From: Planctomycetota bacterium
GTDB lineage: Bacteria > Planctomycetota > Brocadiia > JAADGH01
Assembly (NCBI GenBank): GCA_013152475.1
Contig: JAADGH010000081.1
Span: 62,001-126,000, forward strand
DNA: 64,000 nt
Reading direction: 5' to 3'
Notes under the pieces: generated by a model
The model's database searches: none
The model's input: only the letters and a program-made list of their open reading frames with translations
What the model was told of the DNA's origin: nothing
In this document: piece by piece, positions 40,291 through 51,957 of the stretch
Position numbering within the stretch: the stretch's first letter is position 1
How the letters are laid out: each line of letters begins with the position of its first letter
Position numbers and translations under genes: made by a program

Positions 40291-41118
40291 TTACATCCGC
40301 CCCGCTTTCAGGAACGAATCGGTGTAGATCTGCTTGTTCAGGACCATCTCCGCCGTGATGATGGCATCCACCATCGCATCATCATTCGCGTCGAGAATAG
40401 CGGCATCCAGGCCCGCCGCAATGGCCATGACGACGAAAGTGCGGTTGATGAGCTCCCGTATCTCCTTCTCTTTCGCCATTTGTGAAAGATTGCTGAGCCC
40501 AACGATGAAGTGCAGTCCCGAGTCTGGCCCGCCGACAAATTCCAGTATCTGCTTGATGGACTCGAGAACGTAGCGCGGCTGCTCCTGCCCGTACTTCGCG
40601 GGGAGAACCACCGGGTCGATGAAGACCTTCGAGAGGTCGAGGCCGCCGCCCATGGCCTTCTCGATGATCTGCCCCCCGATGCCGACGCGCGCTTCGATGC
40701 TTGTCGCCGGGCCGCTCGCGTCCATTGTGAGGGCCACAATCGATCCGTTGTGCTCGACCGCGAGCTTGACAAACGTCTCGATCTCGCTGTCCACCCCGCC
40801 GCGCGCGGAGTTTAGGAGGATCGGCCGCCCATCCACTACGCTCAGGGCCGCCTCAAGGATCGGCGCCTTCTGCGTGTCGATCGCAATCGGCGTGTCGATG
40901 CAGTTCTGCACCGTTTGAATCAGCCACTTCATGGCGTCTGCGGGGTCTTCGGCCGCCGTTCCGACGTTGATGTCGAGATACTTGGCGCCGGCCTGTGTCT
41001 GCTTCTTGGCCAACTCCTCGATAACGGACGGGTCCTTCTCCTTGATCGCCTTCTTCACGTTTTTGAACATACCGTTGATTCGCTCACCAACGATGATGAA
41101 GTCCATGGTGTTCGTCAT
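40291..41118 (-). CDS. acsE: Methyltetrahydrofolate:corrinoid/iron-sulfur protein methyltransferase
   Basis: MDFIIVGERINGMFKNVKKAIKEKDPSVIEELAKKQTQAGAKYLDINVGTAAEDPADAMKWLIQTVQ is pterin-binding methyltransferase-like; syntenic with acsD and acsC. Confidence 0.93.
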   Translation of the reverse strand: MTNTMDFIIVGERINGMFKNVKKAIKEKDPSVIEELAKKQTQAGAKYLDINVGTAAEDPADAMKWLIQTVQNCIDTPIAIDTQKAPILEAALSVVDGRPILLNSARGGVDSEIETFVKLAVEHNGSIVALTMDASGPATSIEARVGIGGQIIEKAMGGGLDLSKVFIDPVVLPAKYGQEQPRYVLESIKQILEFVGGPDSGLHFIVGLSNLSQMAKEKEIRELINRTFVVMAIAAGLDAAILDANDDAMVDAIITAEMVLNKQIYTDSFLKAGRM

Positions 41119-41155: not shown

Positions 41156-42118
41156 TCAGGCGTAAAGCTTTTCGAGCACCTTCTTCACCTCCGCCACCGC
41201 CTTCGGGTGTCTCATGCGGAGGATATCGCAGCCGGACTGCACGAGAGCCGTGGCCGTGGTCGCCTCCCACATGACGCCGCGCTCGGCCTGGGGGCCCCAT
41301 TCGGGCGCTTCTTCATCGGACGACTTGGCCTCTTTCGCGCGCCACGACTCGTATCCGATGTCGCAGATCACGGGCATCGACATCATCTTGTCGCCCTGAA
41401 GCGCGGCCAGCATCTCGCGCTCCTGGATCGAGTAGGCATACTCCAGACCATATCCCAGCGCGCCGGTTGTCTGGAACATGACGATTCGGTCCAGCGGAAA
41501 CTCCATGTCGGACAAAAGGATATTCACCTGCTTTCCGATGTTGATATCCAGCGGCGCAAGGCCGATGATGTTGTGTCCGTCGGCCAGGCAAACCGCTGTC
41601 AGGACCTTGTAGTTCTGTTCCTTGGCGCAGCCCAGTAGGGCCCGCTCGCCCTTCAGGGCCTGGCTGACCTTCGGCATAACGGCATTGTCCTTCTCTTCGT
41701 CGTCGCTGCCCCAGACGATGAGAGGGACTCCAACCGCCTCCTTGACGGCGGTCACGACCGCCACCGCGTCGTCAGGGCTCTTGTCGCCTTTGTCGCGGTG
41801 GATGCCGTCGAGCTTCACGCAGATGAGATCCGCACCGCATTCCTCGACCGCCTTTTTCGCCCAGGCCGCGGGGTCGTTCACGACATCGCCCCATGCCTCC
41901 TTCATTGGGGCAGGACAATCATCGGGCACGACATCGAGCACGTCAATCGCAATGGCGATCTTGTTGCCCATGTCGCCCTCGAAATCCATGAAGGGCACGC
42001 ACGAACGCCCGCCAACCGTCACCGTGTTGGCGCGTGTCCCGCCCTCTTCCTTGGTCGCGCCGATGGTCACGGTGCTTACCTTGCCGGACCACTTTTCTGC
42101 CACATCTGGCAAGTCCAT
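41156..42118 (-). CDS. acsD: CODH/ACS corrinoid iron-sulfur protein small (delta) subunit
   Basis: KIAIAIDVLDVVPDDCPAPMKEAWGDVVNDPAAWAKKAVEECGADLICVKLDGIHRDKGDKSPDDAV, ALGYGLEYAYSIQEREMLAALQGDKMMSMPVICDIGYESWRAKE. Confidence 0.95.
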   Translation of the reverse strand: MDLPDVAEKWSGKVSTVTIGATKEEGGTRANTVTVGGRSCVPFMDFEGDMGNKIAIAIDVLDVVPDDCPAPMKEAWGDVVNDPAAWAKKAVEECGADLICVKLDGIHRDKGDKSPDDAVAVVTAVKEAVGVPLIVWGSDDEEKDNAVMPKVSQALKGERALLGCAKEQNYKVLTAVCLADGHNIIGLAPLDINIGKQVNILLSDMEFPLDRIVMFQTTGALGYGLEYAYSIQEREMLAALQGDKMMSMPVICDIGYESWRAKEAKSSDEEAPEWGPQAERGVMWEATTATALVQSGCDILRMRHPKAVAEVKKVLEKLYA

Positions 42119-42165: not shown

Positions 42166-42933
42166 TCACACAACCGCAGCGATGGTCTCCTGAATCACGC
42201 TCCAGATCGTGCGATAGGTTGAATTGCTCTCGGGCAGCTCAAAGACGGACGTTCCGCCCGCCATCATGTCGCAAACCCACTTATCATACGGTATTTCGGC
42301 CGTTACCTCAAGGGGCAATTCGGACATCTTTTCTCTCACGCGATCCGTTACTCCCGACGGAAGCACGCGTGTCAGGATGAACATCCTCCGGCGCACGATG
42401 ATGGGCAGATCGTCGGCCATCTCCAGGATCCGCTTTGCGGCCTCCACCGCCGGGAGGGTCGGCTCGGCAACGACCATCAGGACATCCACATCATTCGTCG
42501 TGCGCCGCGAGAGGTGCTCCATGCCGGCTTCGTTGTCGATCACCACGAACCGATAGTCGGCGGCCGTTTTGTCCAGGAACCCCCTCAGCAAATGGTTCAC
42601 ATAGCAATAGCACTTTGGCCCCTCCGGTCGTCCCATCGTGATGAGATCGAACTTCGGCGTCTCAAGGACCGACTGTTGGATACGGTACTCCAACTCGCGG
42701 TCCTTCGACATCCCCGGCGACAGGCTCGCGGCGATTTTCGTTGCGCTCTCCCGGATGTCGGCGATGGTCTGCTCCGGCTCCACGCCGAGCAAGTAGCCCA
42801 GATTGCTGTTCGGGTCGGCGTCCACGGCCAGGACACCACCCCCGATCTGCTCGGCCAGGTACCGGACGGCAAACGCCGAAAATGTTGTCTTCCCTGTGCC
42901 GCCCTTTCCGGACAGGGCGATTGTAAACGCCAT
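42166..42933 (-). CDS. CooC/AcsF-type nickel-insertion accessory ATPase
   Basis: MAFTIALSGKGGTGKTTFSAFAVRYLAEQIGGG (deviant Walker A), CYCYVNHLLRGFL (CxC), VVIDNEAGMEHLSRRTT. Confidence 0.88.
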   Translation of the reverse strand: MAFTIALSGKGGTGKTTFSAFAVRYLAEQIGGGVLAVDADPNSNLGYLLGVEPEQTIADIRESATKIAASLSPGMSKDRELEYRIQQSVLETPKFDLITMGRPEGPKCYCYVNHLLRGFLDKTAADYRFVVIDNEAGMEHLSRRTTNDVDVLMVVAEPTLPAVEAAKRILEMADDLPIIVRRRMFILTRVLPSGVTDRVREKMSELPLEVTAEIPYDKWVCDMMAGGTSVFELPESNSTYRTIWSVIQETIAAVV

Positions 42934-42961
42934 GACGTTACACCTCTGCGGATGGCCCACA

Positions 42962-44977
42962 CTACGGCTGGCCGGGCTGCTCCGCCGGTTTCTTTTCCTC
43001 CTGCGGCCGCGGGGCCGGGGGAGGTGTCAGCACCTTGAAGCTGTTGAGAATGCTCGCGAACCCTGCCGCGCTTGCTTCATACCTCTGCACCGGCGCGACG
43101 CACATAATCACATACGTCCGCACCGGCGTCGGGAACACAACCTGCCGGGCCTTGACCGCCCGTCCATTCTTGGTGCCCGTAAACAAGAGCTCGTAGGCCT
43201 GGATGTTGTTAAACTGTTTGCGTCCCGCTCGGATCTTCTTGAACTGCTGAAACTGCATCCCGTACATCCCCTCCAGCATGGGCATCCACATCTCCACCGG
43301 CTCCATGCCGAAGGGGAAGCTGACGACGGTCACGATGGCCGAGCCCCCTTTGCCGGTGATGGCCACCGAAAGCATCGGGACGGGCAGGTCTGTGGCGAAG
43401 GCCCAGCCGGGTGGGTGCGAGATCTTAAAGCCCTGTCCCCGGTCGATGAATTGTCGGCCGACAATCCGGCCCTTTGATTTTTGCGAGCCGGCAAGCTGTT
43501 CGGTCATCGTTTTCAGCTGTTTGGCATCCATGCCCATCTGGCGGGCCACGTCGTCATAGGCCTTGTCAACGGCCTCCTTGTCGACCTTCAGGCGGGCCTG
43601 TTCCTGCTTGGGAGGTGCGGCGGGGGGGGGCTGGGCTATGGGGGCTGCGGCCTTGACGCGTCCCTTCTTGAAGGGCCTGGGCGAGCGTTCGGCGCGCCAG
43701 GCGGCCTGGCGAAGGAGGTGCGCCTTGCCCGGGGGAAATCCATCGAGGACGAGAACATCGCGCCCCTTGCGCTCAATCATGACGTAGCCCTGTGTCGGTG
43801 TGCGCCAAACCCACTGATTCGACACGTCCGACTCGATCAGTGAGGCCTTGGGATATTTTTTGATGAGGATTGCCCGGTACACATCGAAAAACTCACCCGC
43901 GTCTTTCGGCGTGTCCCAGGTCGAGAGCCAGGCGACGAATACCTGTCCCGTATCCGGCCGCTCGTAGGCGACATACTGGTCGCCGTCCCAGCCAGAGGAG
44001 ACGAGGCCGGACACGGCAGCAAGATCAAAGGTCTCGCAGAGGACCTGGACGTTGAGCTCGCCCAGGACGTTTGCGATGACGTACTTCCAGTCCGGTCCGA
44101 GGATAGGCGCCAGGTCCGGCAGCCGGAGGAACACCGGGTCGTCCCGGTTTGTGGTGTATTTCTCCGGATGGAGGATCTGCTCGCTGGAAAGGGGAGGGGA
44201 CTTGAACGCCTCGTTCACCTTCTCCTCGCCTCCCAGCCGTTTTAGATGGTTGATGAAGGCAAGTCCGTTGCTGTAGGGGAAGATGAGGTTGCGCTGCAGG
44301 TAGAGAGGGGCCTTCTTGAAGGATTCCGTTTCCCGCGCCGCGACGTCGCCGAGCTTCGCGAGCTCGGCCACATCCTTGGCGTTCTTGAGCATGACCTCCT
44401 GGACATAACGATACATCACCTCGGTCGCGTCGCCCTCGATGACGGCCAGGGAGGCGATGGCAAGGTCATCGTTCACCTTGTCGTCGATGGGTAGTCCACC
44501 GAGGTCGAAATACTGATCCTGCAGGCTATGCGTCATTTCGTGGGACAGGGCCACGCTTTGGAAGGCGCGGGCCACGTCCCGCATCAGGAAGAGTTCTTTG
44601 CGCTTGTGATCGTAGAAGCCGCCGATGTTGGCCGTGAGAAAATCAACAAGGGTCTCCTCGAGTTGGGTGTCTTTCGCCAGAAGGCCGAAGTGGATCAGCG
44701 CCTTTTGGAAGGCCACCAGTCGTTCCGGTGGCATGTCTTCGCGCATCTGGTCGACGACGAACTCCCGAAGCGCCTTGCGGCTCTTGATCCCCTTTTCCAC
44801 GGGGTGTTTGAATTTCAGACCGCGCAGACGTTCCACCTCGTGGGTCATCCGCTCGGTCAGTTGCTTGAGCTCCGCGTCGGTGAATGGTTTGTCCGGCGCA
44901 GGTTTTTCTTGAGCGAGGCCCGGCAGCCCGATGGCAAGCAGGACCACAAAAACCCATCGAGTCATGCGGCGGTTCAT
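42962..44977 (-). CDS. Secreted HExxH metallopeptidase-like protein within the acs operon
   Basis: Signal peptide MNRRMTRWVFVVLLAIGLPGLAQ; SVALSHEMTHSLQDQYFDLGG (HExxH) and ASLAVIEGDATEVMYRY (possible third ligand). ATGA overlap with upstream acsV. Confidence 0.65.
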   Translation of the reverse strand: MNRRMTRWVFVVLLAIGLPGLAQEKPAPDKPFTDAELKQLTERMTHEVERLRGLKFKHPVEKGIKSRKALREFVVDQMREDMPPERLVAFQKALIHFGLLAKDTQLEETLVDFLTANIGGFYDHKRKELFLMRDVARAFQSVALSHEMTHSLQDQYFDLGGLPIDDKVNDDLAIASLAVIEGDATEVMYRYVQEVMLKNAKDVAELAKLGDVAARETESFKKAPLYLQRNLIFPYSNGLAFINHLKRLGGEEKVNEAFKSPPLSSEQILHPEKYTTNRDDPVFLRLPDLAPILGPDWKYVIANVLGELNVQVLCETFDLAAVSGLVSSGWDGDQYVAYERPDTGQVFVAWLSTWDTPKDAGEFFDVYRAILIKKYPKASLIESDVSNQWVWRTPTQGYVMIERKGRDVLVLDGFPPGKAHLLRQAAWRAERSPRPFKKGRVKAAAPIAQPPPAAPPKQEQARLKVDKEAVDKAYDDVARQMGMDAKQLKTMTEQLAGSQKSKGRIVGRQFIDRGQGFKISHPPGWAFATDLPVPMLSVAITGKGGSAIVTVVSFPFGMEPVEMWMPMLEGMYGMQFQQFKKIRAGRKQFNNIQAYELLFTGTKNGRAVKARQVVFPTPVRTYVIMCVAPVQRYEASAAGFASILNSFKVLTPPPAPRPQEEKKPAEQPGQP

Positions 44978-46923
44978 GGCCGTCCTCCTTGCGCGCAGAC
45001 CAGCAGGTCCCGCTCGACCGAGGGGAACTGTTCGATCTTGGTGTGAGGGAGGAACGAGGCGGATACGAATTCCTCCATGAACCGGTTGTTGCCCATGAGG
45101 TCCAGATAGGTCATCTGGCGGGCGATCTTCTCAATCGTGTCAAACGCCTCATTCGACAGCAGGGCCATCTTCGCGCCGCTTGCCGCTGTGTTGCCCACAA
45201 AGCGGATGTGATCCGTGGGGATGTCGGGCAACATGCCGATCCGGATCGCATTGCGAACGTTGAGGTAGTTTCCAAACCCACCGGCAAGGTAGACCCGGTT
45301 GATTTGGTCCACGTTCATGCTGATGGATTCAAGCTGCACGGAAAGCGCCGCATACACCGCGGCCTTCGACCGGATGAGATGTTCGATGTCGGACTGCGTA
45401 ATGACGATGTCCGAATCGGTCCCGCTTTCGTCCTTGGGGACGATGACATACTCATAGACGTCGTCGCGCTCCCGGATGCGCTTGCTGCCGGAGGAAAGGG
45501 AGATGGTGCCAGAGCGGTCGATGACCCCGGCGCAAAGCATCTCCGCGATGCAGTCCAGCAGGCCCGACCCGCACAGACCCTTCGGCTTGCGATGGCCGAT
45601 GGTCTGGTACTCCACCTTGTCGCCGGGAAGGATTCGAATGGTTTCGATGGCGCCGGCGGCGGCCCTCATGCCGTGGGTCACCCCTTGCCCCTCAAAGGCC
45701 GGACCGGCCGAGGCGGAACAGCAGATCATCCAGTCCTTGTTGCCGAGAACGACCTCGCCGTTGGTGCCGATGTCGATGAAGAGGCATATCTCCTCGGCCT
45801 GGTCGAGGCGGATGGCGGCGGCGCCGGCGGTGATGTCGCTGCCGATGTATGCGGCGACGCTCGGCAGGCAATAGAGCAGCCCGCGATGGTTGATCCGGAT
45901 GCCGACTTCGGCCGCGCGGATCGGCGGCACGAAGTTTGCCGTAGGAACATAAGGCTCGCTTCGGATGCGGGTCGAATCCAGCCCGAGGAGGAAGTGGATC
46001 ATCGCGGTATTGCCCGCGCAGACTACGGCCGTGATGTCGCCGATCCGGGTCTTCTTTTCCTCCACAAAGGCCTGGATCAGATCATTGATGTCGCCCACGA
46101 TGCTCCGCTGCATCTCGTCGAAGGCATCGTGGTTGGTCGCATAGATGATCCGCTTGATGTAGTCCTCGCCATACTGCATCTGCGAGTTGTACTTGGCATG
46201 GGAGTCGATGGTCTGCGACGTCTCAAGGTCCACCAGGTAGGTCACCACTGTCGTCGTGCCGATATCGACGGCAATGCCGAAATTGCGCTGGCTTGTATCC
46301 CCCGGCTCGATCTGCACCACCTCCGCGATGTTGCGCCGCCGCGCGATGGTGGCCGTTACGTTCCAGTCGCTCTCGCGCAGGATCGTCGGCGCGCTGCGAA
46401 GGATCTGATAGCCGGTCTGCATCTCGATGTTGCCCTCAATGCGCCGGATGGCGTCGTAGAGGCGCTCGTGGTCGGCGGTTGGGTCTTGCATGGTCGGCGG
46501 TGTGAGCTCGAGGTGCAGTTTTTTGATGAGCGGATTGTGCCGGAAGGCAAAATCTTCGCCGGTAACCGAGACGAGCGCTCCAAAACGCTCCCCGTCCTCG
46601 TCAAGCAGGATCTTTCCGCCCTCCAGACGGCTCTCCTCGGGGACGAGGACCTCAAGGTCGCTCTCGATTCGGGCGAGACACGCCAGAGCAACGTTCTGCT
46701 GGATCTCCTCGCGGGTGAGGAGCGTGGTGGGCTCGGAGGAGATGTCGCCTTTTTGGACGATGACCTTGCACTTGCCGCAGATGCCGTCTCCGCCGCAAAT
46801 ACTGTTGATATAGACCTTTGCCTTCTGTGCGGCGGCCAGGATCGTCTCCCCCCTGGGCACTTCCACCTGCACATCATCGGGCAGAAAACATACTTTGCAC
46901 GGTGCGCCGACGGACTCGGTCAT
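44974..46923 (-). CDS. acsV: Reductive activator of corrinoid protein (RACE, AcsV-like; 2Fe-2S plus ASKHA/DUF4445)
   Basis: YINSICGGDGICGKCKVIVQKGD [2Fe-2S] motif; IAVDIGTTTVVTYLVDLET, FIDIGTNGEVVLGNKDWMICCSASAGPAFEGQGVTHGMRAAAGAIE. Confidence 0.93.
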   Translation of the reverse strand: MTESVGAPCKVCFLPDDVQVEVPRGETILAAAQKAKVYINSICGGDGICGKCKVIVQKGDISSEPTTLLTREEIQQNVALACLARIESDLEVLVPEESRLEGGKILLDEDGERFGALVSVTGEDFAFRHNPLIKKLHLELTPPTMQDPTADHERLYDAIRRIEGNIEMQTGYQILRSAPTILRESDWNVTATIARRRNIAEVVQIEPGDTSQRNFGIAVDIGTTTVVTYLVDLETSQTIDSHAKYNSQMQYGEDYIKRIIYATNHDAFDEMQRSIVGDINDLIQAFVEEKKTRIGDITAVVCAGNTAMIHFLLGLDSTRIRSEPYVPTANFVPPIRAAEVGIRINHRGLLYCLPSVAAYIGSDITAGAAAIRLDQAEEICLFIDIGTNGEVVLGNKDWMICCSASAGPAFEGQGVTHGMRAAAGAIETIRILPGDKVEYQTIGHRKPKGLCGSGLLDCIAEMLCAGVIDRSGTISLSSGSKRIRERDDVYEYVIVPKDESGTDSDIVITQSDIEHLIRSKAAVYAALSVQLESISMNVDQINRVYLAGGFGNYLNVRNAIRIGMLPDIPTDHIRFVGNTAASGAKMALLSNEAFDTIEKIARQMTYLDLMGNNRFMEEFVSASFLPHTKIEQFPSVERDLLVCAQGGRP

Positions 46924-46964: not shown

Positions 46965-48296
46965 TTACGTCCAAATCTGTTTCAGATACGTCGGAATCAC
47001 AGCGGATTCCTTGGGGCCGACCAGGATCTCCCACCCCGTTTCCTCCTCCAGCTTGCCGGACATGACGGCAACATGGCCTGGGATGATGAGCTTCCGGTGC
47101 TTGACCACCTCTTCGAGCTTGACGTTTTGCATGGCCTTGTGCACGACCTTCTCATTCAGTTTGTCCCCGGAGTAGGCCGTCAGCACGGATGTGCCTTCGG
47201 TATCGACGGCAAGGATATAGGTCGGCACCCGGCTGGCCTCCACGTCGCTCTCCACACTGAAGTACGTCAGTGAGAAGTTGGTTGTAAACATCACTGGCGA
47301 GTTTTCGTTCACATCGCCCACGGCGTACAGCTTGCATTCCACCTGGATCGGTTTCTGCGGGTCTGTGTAGATATTCATCCGCGCGGTGAGGATGGGAATG
47401 ATCTGGTACGGCTCGGTCACATCGACCACCACGATGCCCGAATATTTGAGCACGAATGTAGCCGCCTCCAATACCTGTTGGAATGGGTCCGGGTCTTGAA
47501 CGAAGGTGACCGGCGGGTGTCCGAGGGCGCGGAAGGTCTTCTTCAGGGCGGCCCGGCGCGTCTTGGTCAGGCTTTGAAGCGCGGTCTTGAGGTCGGCGCT
47601 GAGGTCGATCACGATGTTCTCGACGCCAGCGGCTTTCACCTTCTCCGCCAGCTCCGCGATTTCTTCGAGGGATCCGGCCTTGACGGCCAGGGGGCACTTC
47701 GCGTCCTTCGCCACCTTCGCCATGTCGTCGACATTACCGGCCGTGGCGACATGAAGCAGGGGGCGCTGCGCGCCGACCTCCGCAACGGCGGCCTTCATGG
47801 CGGCTGCGTTCTCGCTGGAGAGAAGCAGAAGCAGGCCCGTCTCGCCGGCGGCCTTGGCGGCCTTGGCAAAGGCATCGGCCTTGCCGCTCTTGTTCATCAC
47901 GGCAATCATATCCACGGCGATATCGGTTCCGACGCGGGTAAACTTTAGGTTCTTGATCGTGTCGATGCGTTCCTTCAGGGCCCCCTCATCGAGGTCGTCC
48001 GAGAGGGTAACGGCCACGCCGCACGGATGATGGAACTTCTCGTCGTGTCGGAAGAGCTGGGTCTCCTGGCCGATGCTGAGTTTCTTCTCGTCCGCGCCGA
48101 TATCCACCAGACGGATCGGCGGGGCGGCGGCGCCGGCGAGTTTCTCCTTGGCCTCCTCCGTGATGTCCGGGCACTTATCGAGCTCGATCTTTTTTTGCGC
48201 CAGCATCATGGCGAAGGCAAGACAGGTCGGTTGTCCGCACTTCTTGCAGTTCGTCTTCGGCAATAACTTGAATATGTCCAGCCCAGTCAGTCCCAT
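46965..48296 (-). CDS. acsC: CODH/ACS corrinoid iron-sulfur protein large (gamma) subunit
   Basis: MGLTGLDIFKLLPKTNCKKCGQPTCLAFAMMLAQKKIELDKCPDITEEA [4Fe-4S] domain; C-terminal VAVMSGKLEEETGWEILVGPKESAVIPTYLKQIW. Confidence 0.96.
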   Translation of the reverse strand: MGLTGLDIFKLLPKTNCKKCGQPTCLAFAMMLAQKKIELDKCPDITEEAKEKLAGAAAPPIRLVDIGADEKKLSIGQETQLFRHDEKFHHPCGVAVTLSDDLDEGALKERIDTIKNLKFTRVGTDIAVDMIAVMNKSGKADAFAKAAKAAGETGLLLLLSSENAAAMKAAVAEVGAQRPLLHVATAGNVDDMAKVAKDAKCPLAVKAGSLEEIAELAEKVKAAGVENIVIDLSADLKTALQSLTKTRRAALKKTFRALGHPPVTFVQDPDPFQQVLEAATFVLKYSGIVVVDVTEPYQIIPILTARMNIYTDPQKPIQVECKLYAVGDVNENSPVMFTTNFSLTYFSVESDVEASRVPTYILAVDTEGTSVLTAYSGDKLNEKVVHKAMQNVKLEEVVKHRKLIIPGHVAVMSGKLEEETGWEILVGPKESAVIPTYLKQIWT

Positions 48297-48332: not shown

Positions 48333-48929
48333 TCAAATCTGGTCGGCGCCCTTGATTACCTTGTTGATCAGTCCGTACTTCAGTGCTTCTTCTGCGGACA
48401 TCCAGTAGTTGCGGCGCGTGTCGGCCTCCACCTTTTCCAGCTTCTGCCCGGTTTCATCGGCGATGAGCTTGTTAATCTTGGTGCGGAACTTCAGTATCTC
48501 CGACGCCTCGATCTCGATATCCGCCGCCGCGCCGCGGACGGACGTGGAAGGCTGGTGGATCAGCAGCCTGGCATTGGGCAGGGCATAGCGCTGGCCCCGG
48601 GTCCCCGCGAGGAGCACAATCACCGCCGCGCTGGCTGTCAGGCCGGCGCAGATCGTTTGAACCGGCGGCTTGATGAAGTTGATTATGTCGTAGATGGCGA
48701 AACCGGCGTCGGCGTCGCCGCCGGGCGAGTTGATGATGATCCGGATCTTTTCGCCTGGATCATCCGCCTCCAAAAGCAGAAGTTGTGTGATCACCTTCCG
48801 GGAGAGATCCTTATCGAACTCGTCGGCGAGGACGATCGTCCGCGTCTTCAACATGCGAAGCAGGACGCCCTCGTCGCTGTCCTTCTTCGCGTCCTCCTCG
48901 TTTTTCTTGGCTAATCGTTTGAAATCCAT
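48333..48929 (-). CDS. ClpP-like serine protease paralog with Asn in the catalytic Asp position
   Basis: IRIIINSPGGDADAGFAIYDIINFIKPPVQTICAGLTASAAVIVLLAGTRGQRYALPNARLLIHQPS; triad third residue region ADTRRNYWMSAEEALKYGLINKVI. Confidence 0.92.
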   Translation of the reverse strand: MDFKRLAKKNEEDAKKDSDEGVLLRMLKTRTIVLADEFDKDLSRKVITQLLLLEADDPGEKIRIIINSPGGDADAGFAIYDIINFIKPPVQTICAGLTASAAVIVLLAGTRGQRYALPNARLLIHQPSTSVRGAAADIEIEASEILKFRTKINKLIADETGQKLEKVEADTRRNYWMSAEEALKYGLINKVIKGADQI

Positions 48930-48947: not shown

Positions 48948-51128
48948 TCAGAACATCGGATCCATACCCAGCGCCGGGTGGTTCACCTTGGCGCAGAACT
49001 CGGCGATCTCTTCCTCCGTGCTGCCGATGGTCTCATCGGCGATCTTGTTGTAGAAGTCCTCCAGCCCCAGTTCCTCGGCGCGCGCCTCGATCATGTCTTT
49101 CAGCTCTTCCTTCAGGCGCTTCGGCATCCAACAGATGCGCGCCATGCCCCCATCGGCCGAGATAAACTTCTTGCTGCCGATGTACTGCTTGCTGTGGCCG
49201 ATAAACCCCGGGGTCTGCAGGCCGCCGCCGACGGTCCCGGCCAGGGTCGAGAACTTCATACCGCAGGGGGTCATGTCCGGATGATCGCGGTCCACCGTCA
49301 TAATCCCGTTTGCAGCGGCAAGCATTATTGAAATACACTCGAAGCATCCGCAGGAGGTCATCGGGTCGATCATCATGCTGTAGGCGCTGAAGCCCTCCAG
49401 CGTGCCATGCGAGTTCGCCTTGACAAAGTCGTTGATCTTCTCCCACTGGCCAAGCTTCGGGTCGAGTACACGGCCCTTTTCGAGGGGTTGATTTGGGCCG
49501 GTGGGCGTGATTTCGTAGGCCGCCCGGCCGTCAAGCCAATTATATGCTCCGCAAAGCCCGGGACGCTCCGGGGTGATGACACAGACGTGATTCGGGGCGA
49601 AGGACTGGCACAGTGTGCACGAATAAAAGAGCTCAACGGACTCATCGGTCATGCCCGCCAGGCGCGCGTCACGTTCGTGGAAGATCGTTCTGGCCTCCTC
49701 GCGCAGCCTCAGGACATCCTCTTCATTGGTATAAACCTTGACCTGTACCTTGTCAAAGATGGCGCCGTATTCATCATGGAGTTTGGCGTGAAGGATTACG
49801 CCGAGATGACGAAACGTAAGACCCGCCGCCTTGCCATCCTTGCTGATTCGCACCCACGTGATGTCGCGCTGGCCCATATGAAAAATGCCCTGGGCCTCGT
49901 TCAGGAACCGGTGGACCTGCCGTTCCAGAATGGGCTCGAAGTCCGTCTGCATCTTGCGCCCCGCGACCTCCACGATGATTCCGAGAGGGAGCCGGTCGCC
50001 TTCGTTGATGTCGGTGATCTCCGGGCCGATCACCTCCACGTTCCCGTCCTGGATCTCATGGGTGGATTTCGTGGTGACGAACTCAAAGGCCGGCGTCTTC
50101 GTGCCGCCCATTTCTGTAAACATGTCATCCTTGCGGATGCGTTCGCCCTCGAAGGCGGGGCCGAAGGGAACGGGCACGTCCACCTCGGAAATCTTGATCT
50201 TCAGGCCGCGGACCTCGATGGCCTTTTCGACCATGTCTTCGGTGGGGATGTTCGACACCACATGCTCGTAGGTGCAGACGCCCGTGGGCAGGATCTCGGG
50301 AATGTCGGTGTTGGCAACCGTGGGAAAGCCGTAGTTGATCGCCCCGGCCGCGTTCGCATATTTTTCATCATCCACTTCCCCGAGTGCGAGGACAAATGCA
50401 AAGATACGGAGCTTATTGTAGCGCAGGTTTCTCGCAAAGTCCCCCGGCTGCACGCCGCCGAAGGACAGGGCCGCCCGGGTGGCAAACCCGGCCGCGTAGA
50501 TTGTGGCCTCGATGCTCTTGCCAAAGGGGACCAAACGCGTCTCCCAGCCCATCTGGACGCCTTCTTCGGCCAACTGTTCGGACATAGATTTGCCGTTCGT
50601 GTCGGCAGACATGAAGACGTAGAGGCTCTTCTGCTGCAGTTCTCTCGCCAGGCTGACGGCGAGCTCATTCGTCTCGCAGGCCCCGACGCAAGCGGCGAAG
50701 CCGGGGGCCGTGCCGTCCACGAACTCGATGCCGCGTTCGCGCAAAATGACGTCGTCGGCGGCGCCGAGCCAGATGCCATCCACCGGGTTCGGCCCGACAA
50801 CGTACTTGCACCCTTCGATAATTTCTTCGGCCCAGAGCGTCGCCATGCCGGCATCCAGCGCATGGCCCAGATAGGGGACCCACGTTTTGTCCGCGGGGAC
50901 GGGGGGCAGAAGGCCCCGCGCCCGTTCGAGGATCGGCTTCATTTGGCCGAGTGTCTCGACGCCCTCGCCCGTCATGCCATAGATAACAGGGAGATAGTAG
51001 CCGGTGTTCGGGAACTCGACCTTGCAGTCTTCTCCCTTGGCCTCGATGGCCTCTGCAAGTTTTTGCTCGGCGCGCTCGACAATCTTATGCGCCCCGCGAA
51101 TTGCTGCTGAACAGATGATCTTCGACAT
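48948..51128 (-). CDS. acsB: Acetyl-CoA synthase (CODH/ACS beta subunit)
   Basis: A-cluster motifs ELFYSCTLCQSFAPNHVCVITPERPGLCGAYNWLDGRAAYEI and MTSCGCFECISIML. Confidence 0.98.
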   Translation of the reverse strand: MSKIICSAAIRGAHKIVERAEQKLAEAIEAKGEDCKVEFPNTGYYLPVIYGMTGEGVETLGQMKPILERARGLLPPVPADKTWVPYLGHALDAGMATLWAEEIIEGCKYVVGPNPVDGIWLGAADDVILRERGIEFVDGTAPGFAACVGACETNELAVSLARELQQKSLYVFMSADTNGKSMSEQLAEEGVQMGWETRLVPFGKSIEATIYAAGFATRAALSFGGVQPGDFARNLRYNKLRIFAFVLALGEVDDEKYANAAGAINYGFPTVANTDIPEILPTGVCTYEHVVSNIPTEDMVEKAIEVRGLKIKISEVDVPVPFGPAFEGERIRKDDMFTEMGGTKTPAFEFVTTKSTHEIQDGNVEVIGPEITDINEGDRLPLGIIVEVAGRKMQTDFEPILERQVHRFLNEAQGIFHMGQRDITWVRISKDGKAAGLTFRHLGVILHAKLHDEYGAIFDKVQVKVYTNEEDVLRLREEARTIFHERDARLAGMTDESVELFYSCTLCQSFAPNHVCVITPERPGLCGAYNWLDGRAAYEITPTGPNQPLEKGRVLDPKLGQWEKINDFVKANSHGTLEGFSAYSMMIDPMTSCGCFECISIMLAAANGIMTVDRDHPDMTPCGMKFSTLAGTVGGGLQTPGFIGHSKQYIGSKKFISADGGMARICWMPKRLKEELKDMIEARAEELGLEDFYNKIADETIGSTEEEIAEFCAKVNHPALGMDPMF

Positions 51129-51183: not shown

Positions 51184-51957
51184 TTATAGTTCCACGAATT
51201 CCCCGAGCCTCGTTCGAATCGCCTTGACTTCCTCTACGACCCGCTCGTCGCTCTCATACGAGGGCTCCCCGGCAAGGTCCGCGCGGATCAGCTTCTCGCT
51301 GTAGGACATCGTCCCCAGGAGGGGGACCTCCTTCAGTTCCCCCCGCATGAAGTCGATGTGCGCCTGCTCCTTTACCTTGTTCCCCACGGCGCACACGCGC
51401 TGGATGCCCAGATCGGCGCCGAGCGACTTGACCTCGTGCGCCGTCCGCACACTCCGCCGGCCCGGCTCGACGACGACGATAAGCGCATCCACCGCCTGCA
51501 CCGTCGCCCGGCCGAGGTGTTCGATGCCCGCCTCCATGTCCACGATGGCATCCTCGTCGCGATGGAGGATAAGATGGGTCAGCAGCGCCTTCAGGAACAC
51601 ATTCTCGGGACAGGCACAACCGCCCCCCCCCCTGTACACACCTCCAAGCACCATGAGCCTGACGCCGGCATGTTCGACCGAGAACTTCTCGGGGAGGTCT
51701 GAAACGCTCGGGTTCATCTTGAAGAACTTGCCGTAGCCTTCCGGATCGGCCCCGGTCCGTTCAGCGATCAAGTCCCTCATCTGCCCGATGGGCGTCAGGT
51801 TCGCATCGGCGGGAGCACCTATTGCAGAGGCCAGGTTGGCGTCCGGGTCCGCATCGATCGCAATCGGTTTTCTGCCCTCTTGGGCGAAGATGCGGGCTAA
51901 GATCGCAACAAACGTTGTTTTCCCGACACCCCCCTTACCTGAAACGGCAATTTTCAT
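51184..51957 (-). CDS. acsF: ACS nickel-insertion accessory ATPase (AcsF/CooC)
   Basis: MKIAVSGKGGVGKTTFVAILARIFAQEGRKPIAIDADPDANLASAIG, GGGGCACPENVFLKALL (CxC), AIVDMEAGIEHLGRATV. Confidence 0.93.
   Translation of the reverse strand: MKIAVSGKGGVGKTTFVAILARIFAQEGRKPIAIDADPDANLASAIGAPADANLTPIGQMRDLIAERTGADPEGYGKFFKMNPSVSDLPEKFSVEHAGVRLMVLGGVYRGGGGCACPENVFLKALLTHLILHRDEDAIVDMEAGIEHLGRATVQAVDALIVVVEPGRRSVRTAHEVKSLGADLGIQRVCAVGNKVKEQAHIDFMRGELKEVPLLGTMSYSEKLIRADLAGEPSYESDERVVEEVKAIRTRLGEFVEL

Follow-up and report, generated by a model that had tools for sequence, protein, structure and literature searches.

Introduction

The carbon monoxide dehydrogenase/acetyl-CoA synthase complex (CODH/ACS) is counted among the most oxygen-sensitive and possibly oldest of the carbon-fixing enzymes, and to our knowledge how cells protect it and turn it over is largely unknown. 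A gene for a ClpP-type peptidase situated between acsB and acsC in a planctomycete of the class Brocadiia raises the question of whether a protease core of general use serves this pathway in particular. The gene lies in a 64,000-nucleotide stretch of contig JAADGH010000081.1, called the window below. A reading made from the sequence only had described it as a ClpP paralogue with a Ser-His-Asn triad and suggested a quality-control or partner role for the oxygen-sensitive ACS and corrinoid iron-sulfur (CFeSP) proteins. The clpP-acs association is found here to be real and conserved, it is apparently undescribed so far, and it points to a putative, undescribed protease that would care for the oxygen-sensitive Wood-Ljungdahl pathway.

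The acs Gene Block and Its ClpP

The genes of the block are arranged in the order cooC-acsB-clpP-acsC-acsV-(Hvo_1808-like gene)-cooC-acsD-acsE, with clpP on the same strand as its neighbours, 18 bp past acsB and 36 bp ahead of acsC:

51184..51957, minus strand: CooC/AcsF-type ATPase (nickel insertion, by homology), first gene of the block (PF01656)
48948..51128, minus strand: acsB, acetyl-CoA synthase (CODH/ACS alpha/beta-type), directly upstream of clpP (NF040764; PF19436/PF03598/PF18537)
48333..48929, minus strand: clpP paralogue of 198 amino acids with Ser100-His125-Asn174; ATG start (48929), GGGAG ribosome-binding site, 198 codons
48408..48410, minus strand: AAC codon of Asn174, aligned to E. 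coli Asp171
46965..48296, minus strand: acsC, corrinoid iron-sulfur protein large (gamma) subunit, directly downstream of clpP (NF003195; PF03599/PF04060)
44974..46923, minus strand: acsV, corrinoid activation/regeneration protein (RACo; PF14574, PF17651; best NCBIfam model NF040756, below its cut-off)
42962..44977, minus strand: Hvo_1808-like/putative metallopeptidase-like protein between acsV and cooC (weak DUF6782 match)
42166..42960, minus strand: CooC/MinD-type ATPase, second copy (PF01656)
41156..42118, minus strand: acsD, corrinoid iron-sulfur protein small (delta) subunit (NF003376)
40291..41118, minus strand: acsE-like methyltetrahydrofolate:CFeSP methyltransferase (PF00809; NF005719, below its cut-off)

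The Hvo_1808-like gene is also present in three relatives (L114, L115, L116). acsA is absent from the block and does not adjoin acsB; two CODH/prismane-family genes are located outside it, on contigs C74 and C168 of the window genome (G000), while most relatives have a gap of about 2.1 kb beside acsB, of a size fitting acsA and holding a 650-residue open reading frame. The acs operon encodes no AAA+ unfoldase of a kind that binds ClpP.

The placement of a ClpP paralogue between acsB and acsC is confirmed by the Pfam CLP_protease match (PF00574, residues 22-193, E=6.1e-68), which assigns the product to the ClpP peptidase family, together with the models that identify its neighbours. Alignment to E. 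coli ClpP (S97/H122/D171) gives the triad as S100/H125/N174, and both the Asn and its AAC codon are as first read. The protein passes the NCBIfam subfamily model NF009205 (244.3 bits, cut-off 228) and scores well below the cut-off of the housekeeping equivalog TIGR00493 (202.3 bits, cut-off 308.6); it also lacks the other marks of a housekeeping ClpP, namely linkage to tig or clpX, the N-terminal axial motif and a Ser-His-Asp triad. An AlphaFold model of the monomer, built from 72 sequences (pLDDT 91.5) and used in place of an earlier weak model from 15 sequences (pLDDT 68), has the ClpP fold at full length, with TM scores of 0.85-0.91 against solved ClpPs in Foldseek and the Thermus enzyme as best PDB match. 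The hydrophobic positions of the docking pocket are mostly still hydrophobic. Where canonical ClpPs carry the axial-hairpin motif, there is a charged N-terminal arm (approximately residues 1-28), modelled at lower confidence as a helix.

Housekeeping ClpP and Unfoldases of the Same Genome

A second, canonical clpP, whose existence the sequence-only reading had left to be checked, was found on another contig. The window genome (6.5 Mb, 250 contigs) encodes one other true ClpP, on contig C183 between tig (trigger factor) and clpX and with a Ser-His-Asp triad; a third weak clpP match is an SppA-like peptidase, as judged from its sequence. The genome also encodes ClpX and a candidate ClpC-like ATPase with an LGF loop, and ClpX scores above cut-off in 55 of 58 genomes of the class. 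The tig-clpP-clpX order is intact in the window genome and in genomes of families f2 and f5 (L001, L189, L225, L226), and sampled f4, f6, f7 and f8 genomes (L215-L224, L227, L228) have the housekeeping tig-clpP pair with clpX elsewhere. At one of the intact loci (L225, genome G012) Tyr replaces the triad Asp of the housekeeping ClpP (S-H-Y), and this genome carries an Asn-type orphan ClpP besides. As a separate observation, several contigs of the window genome give 11 matches to the HZS_alpha domain (PF18582), mostly in large proteins, which are domain matches only.

Recurrence and Limits of the acs Linkage

Fifty-eight genomes of the class were searched for the acs-type ClpP and for AcsB. An acsB at least 66% identical to that of the window is present in 42 of them, and in 41 of these 42 an orthologous clpP adjoins it on the same contig; in the remaining genome (G004) acsB and clpP lie on either side of a contig break, with acsC still following clpP. 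The 42 linked genomes span six family codes (f1, f4, f6, f7, f8 and f9) and include, by record name, several Candidatus Scalindua and one Candidatus Brocadiaceae bacterium. Both the acsB-clpP and the clpP-acsC adjacency are kept in all 29 loci analysed, whereas acsC-acsV, acsV-cooC and cooC-acsD are each interrupted in one to three loci. Spacing around clpP is tight in f1, f6, f8, f9 and most f7 loci; most f4 loci are looser, with gaps of about 50-850 bp flanking the gene on each side. The gene is under strong purifying selection (dN/dS 0.04-0.26 in six close pairs), and as 41 further genomes of the class share the arrangement (one of them with the contig break), chance does not explain it. 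Passive regional synteny is likewise ruled out, because genes past the acs block are almost never common to different families.

The linkage has clear limits. No clpP separates acsB from the acsC behind it in other planctomycete classes (acsB up to 71% identical) or in f3, a family of the window's own class with an acsB about 50% identical, which rules out a universal feature of the Wood-Ljungdahl pathway. Conservation of the linkage, which had been named as a check, holds for the 42 class genomes with this type of acsB and fails as a general rule for Wood-Ljungdahl organisms; among the planctomycetes searched, the linkage is limited to one clade of one class. At locus L164 an unrelated nucleotidyltransferase gene lies between acsB and acsC. 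Three genomes (G042, G048, G050) have neither acsB nor an acs-type clpP, and a fourth (G057) has a 41-residue acsB fragment and no acs-type clpP, a joint absence that may reflect missing contigs. L187 (G030) and L188 (G055) each hold an additional acsB that stands alone, accompanied by neither clpP nor acsC; the acsB copies of G030 encode identical proteins. The outcome named beforehand as speaking against a special role, a sole housekeeping clpP with no recurrent acs linkage, does not apply, since the genome has its housekeeping clpP elsewhere and the linkage to acs recurs and is conserved.

The orthologue also exists without its acs neighbours. In most f3 genomes it lies outside the acs operon, in G001, G002 and G012 it is present where acsB is absent, and in several f3 and f5 genomes (L149, L151, L153 and L185) it follows a SurA/PPIC-type PPIase, an arrangement reminiscent of tig-clpP. 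It follows that the protein predates its acs linkage and can function without acs. These settings bear on an explanation in which the product is a second ClpP for stress and turnover throughout the cell, to which the strong, growth-linked acs promoter merely offered a convenient home. Its standalone homologues across Planctomycetota, the general protein-folding context behind the SurA-like PPIase, the single origin of the linkage and the lack of a degron difference between AcsB/AcsC of linked and unlinked operons all speak in its favour. Against it stands the position within the acs block, which is kept in all 42 genomes and six families (one with the contig break) while the outside flanks reshuffle, and on balance a general-purpose ClpP appears doubtful.

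Origin of the acs-Linked ClpP

Phylogeny, which had also been called for, places the acs-linked ClpP in an orphan lineage. The acs-linked proteins form one clade (99/62; 98% of bootstrap trees) beside the non-acs orthologues of the class, and the lineage holding both is split from canonical ClpPs at 100/100; Listeria ClpP1 was outside the tree set. Within the orphan lineage, standalone ClpPs of other Planctomycetota have Asp at the third triad position and those of the window's class have Asn, so that, most simply, the orphan paralogue would first have exchanged Asp for Asn and then entered the acs operon a single time. Since acs operons of other planctomycete classes and of family f3 lack clpP and the orthologue occurs in other settings, a pre-existing orphan ClpP was probably recruited once and retained. 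An origin of the linkage in a single event also means that inheritance of the cluster accounts for part of its persistence.

Catalytic Triad and Ring-Ring Sensor

Asn occupies the triad Asp position in all 34 acs-linked sequences examined, as in Listeria ClpP1, and Ser, His and Asn are invariant throughout the group; the loss of Ser and/or His that marks ClpR-type inactive subunits is not seen. In Listeria, ClpP1 is an Asn-type subunit that needs ClpP2, its triad aligning only with that partner (PMC9765437), and the Asn had been read here as a sign of the same dependence. This is not supported, because Ser-His-Asn also occurs in ClpPs that are housekeeping by position, at tig-clpP-clpX loci of Bacillota and Zixibacteria; it is found as well at clpP-clpX loci of Balneolales and of a Prevotella-labelled genome (all these loci: L013, L014, L016, L018, L019, L021, L023, L024, L030, L037). 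Asn as proof of partner dependence is hence ruled out, and Ser-His-Asn triads occur in a wider range of ClpPs than the few cases described so far, tig-clpP-clpX loci included.

A change at position 170 may be more telling than the Asn. In canonical ClpPs, Asp/Glu170 pairs with Arg171 across the rings as an Asp/Arg sensor (PMC6110781, PMC9823225). The canonical copies of the class keep Asp at this position, while each of the 27 acs-linked proteins included in the tree has Lys or Arg there, which, set against the canonical pairing, suggests altered ring stacking or activation. The Lys or Arg at position 170, the triad Asn, the charged arm in place of the axial hairpin and the Listeria precedent would together suit a regulatory ring, a poor peptidase by itself that forms mixed tetradecamers with the housekeeping ClpP and shifts gate, activity or unfoldase choice when acs is expressed. 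Such a role is nevertheless unlikely, given the Ser-His-Asn triads of tig-clpP-clpX ClpPs in other phyla, the full conservation of Ser and His, unlike in ClpR-type dead subunits, and the result from Pseudomonas plecoglossicida ClpP1 that its low activity was not due mainly to the third triad residue (PMC12900304).

A Protease Dedicated to ACS and CFeSP?

The best explanation, which we hold tentatively and with a little less than even confidence, is that an orphan ClpP was recruited once into the acs operon and, being catalytically competent, is dedicated to the turnover of ACS and CFeSP with ClpX or ClpC. We infer this from position, conservation and precedent. After its recruitment between acsB and acsC the paralogue would have been kept as a member of the cluster, with its output matched to that of acetyl-CoA synthase and the corrinoid protein. 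Its product would most likely form catalytically competent rings, homomeric or stacked with a ring of the housekeeping ClpP, would rely on ClpX or ClpC of the cell as its AAA+ unfoldase, and would remove damaged or mis-metallated copies of the oxygen-sensitive Ni-Fe-S and Fe-S proteins, ACS and the corrinoid protein. A narrower version, in which anammox-type planctomycetes use a co-expressed, pathway-dedicated Asn-type ClpP with rewired sensor and gate for the selective removal of ACS/CFeSP damaged by oxygen or metal, is possible, with the balance leaning towards doubt.

Dedicated turnover is favoured by the near-complete adjacency of clpP to acsB and its unbroken position in the analysed loci amid reshuffled flanks, by the single clade that the acs-linked proteins form within the orphan lineage, by the invariant triad, the low dN/dS and the full-length fold, by ClpX throughout most of the class and the genome's own ClpC-like candidate, by the joint absence of clpP and acsB (or all but a fragment of it) in four genomes, and by the mitochondrial precedent discussed below. 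Counted against it are the acs operons without a linked clpP in other classes and f3, the orthologues outside acs, the lack of an unfoldase in the operon, the single origin of the linkage and the AcsB/AcsC tails, since sequence comparison of linked and unlinked operons revealed no degron-like or distinctive C-terminal tail on either protein. The termini bear equally on a further proposal, that the protease trims or unfolds AcsB, AcsC or AcsD during nickel or cobamide loading without destroying them. The location of clpP among the maturation genes cooC and acsV would fit such a role, and NiFe hydrogenase maturation uses dedicated endopeptidases; however, ClpP is a processive chambered protease and AcsB/AcsC termini are similar in length and sequence type with or without a linked clpP, which leaves maturation highly improbable.

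The sequence-only reading knew of no described ClpP-acs system, and the open-access full-text literature, to which the search was confined, yielded no published link of this kind and no dedicated CODH/ACS protease; two papers that looked promising for such a link (PMC6925170, PMC5113046) merely mention clp genes. With its fixed place in the acs operon throughout a planctomycete clade, this ClpP is a concrete candidate for the care of CODH/ACS, and if dedicated turnover is correct, a general ATP-dependent protease core would be genetically tied to one metabolic pathway.

Comparison with Known ClpP Systems

The acs-operon ClpP shares with the housekeeping ClpPs of E. coli and Thermus thermophilus (6hwm) the fold, Ser and His, the handle helix and most hydrophobic pocket positions, and differs from them by Asn for Asp, the missing axial-hairpin motif, the low TIGR00493 score, its distance from tig and clpX and its separate branch. 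With Listeria monocytogenes ClpP1 (Asn172, in ClpP1P2) it has in common the Asn and a second ClpP in the genome, but the genomic setting is another one and Asn alone cannot indicate partner dependence. Orphan ClpPs of Alphaproteobacteria and Verrucomicrobia (Inquilinus, Skermanella and others) are alike in belonging to the same deep orphan lineage, with Asn and no canonical axial motif, whereas they keep the acidic ring-ring sensor (TDRN or TERN) and are not in acs operons. The nearest relatives outside the class are the standalone Planctomycetota ClpP2 proteins (46-56% identical), which likewise show no tig or clpX linkage at the loci examined, and which differ in having Ser-His-Asp and diverse neighbourhoods. 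In function, a possible analogue is mitochondrial CLPP, which, according to work cited in PMC8790184, replaces the oxidatively damaged N-module of complex I and so turns over an oxidation-prone Fe-S module; it is, however, a housekeeping ClpP whose gene does not lie among those of its substrate, unlike the ClpP encoded between acsB and acsC.
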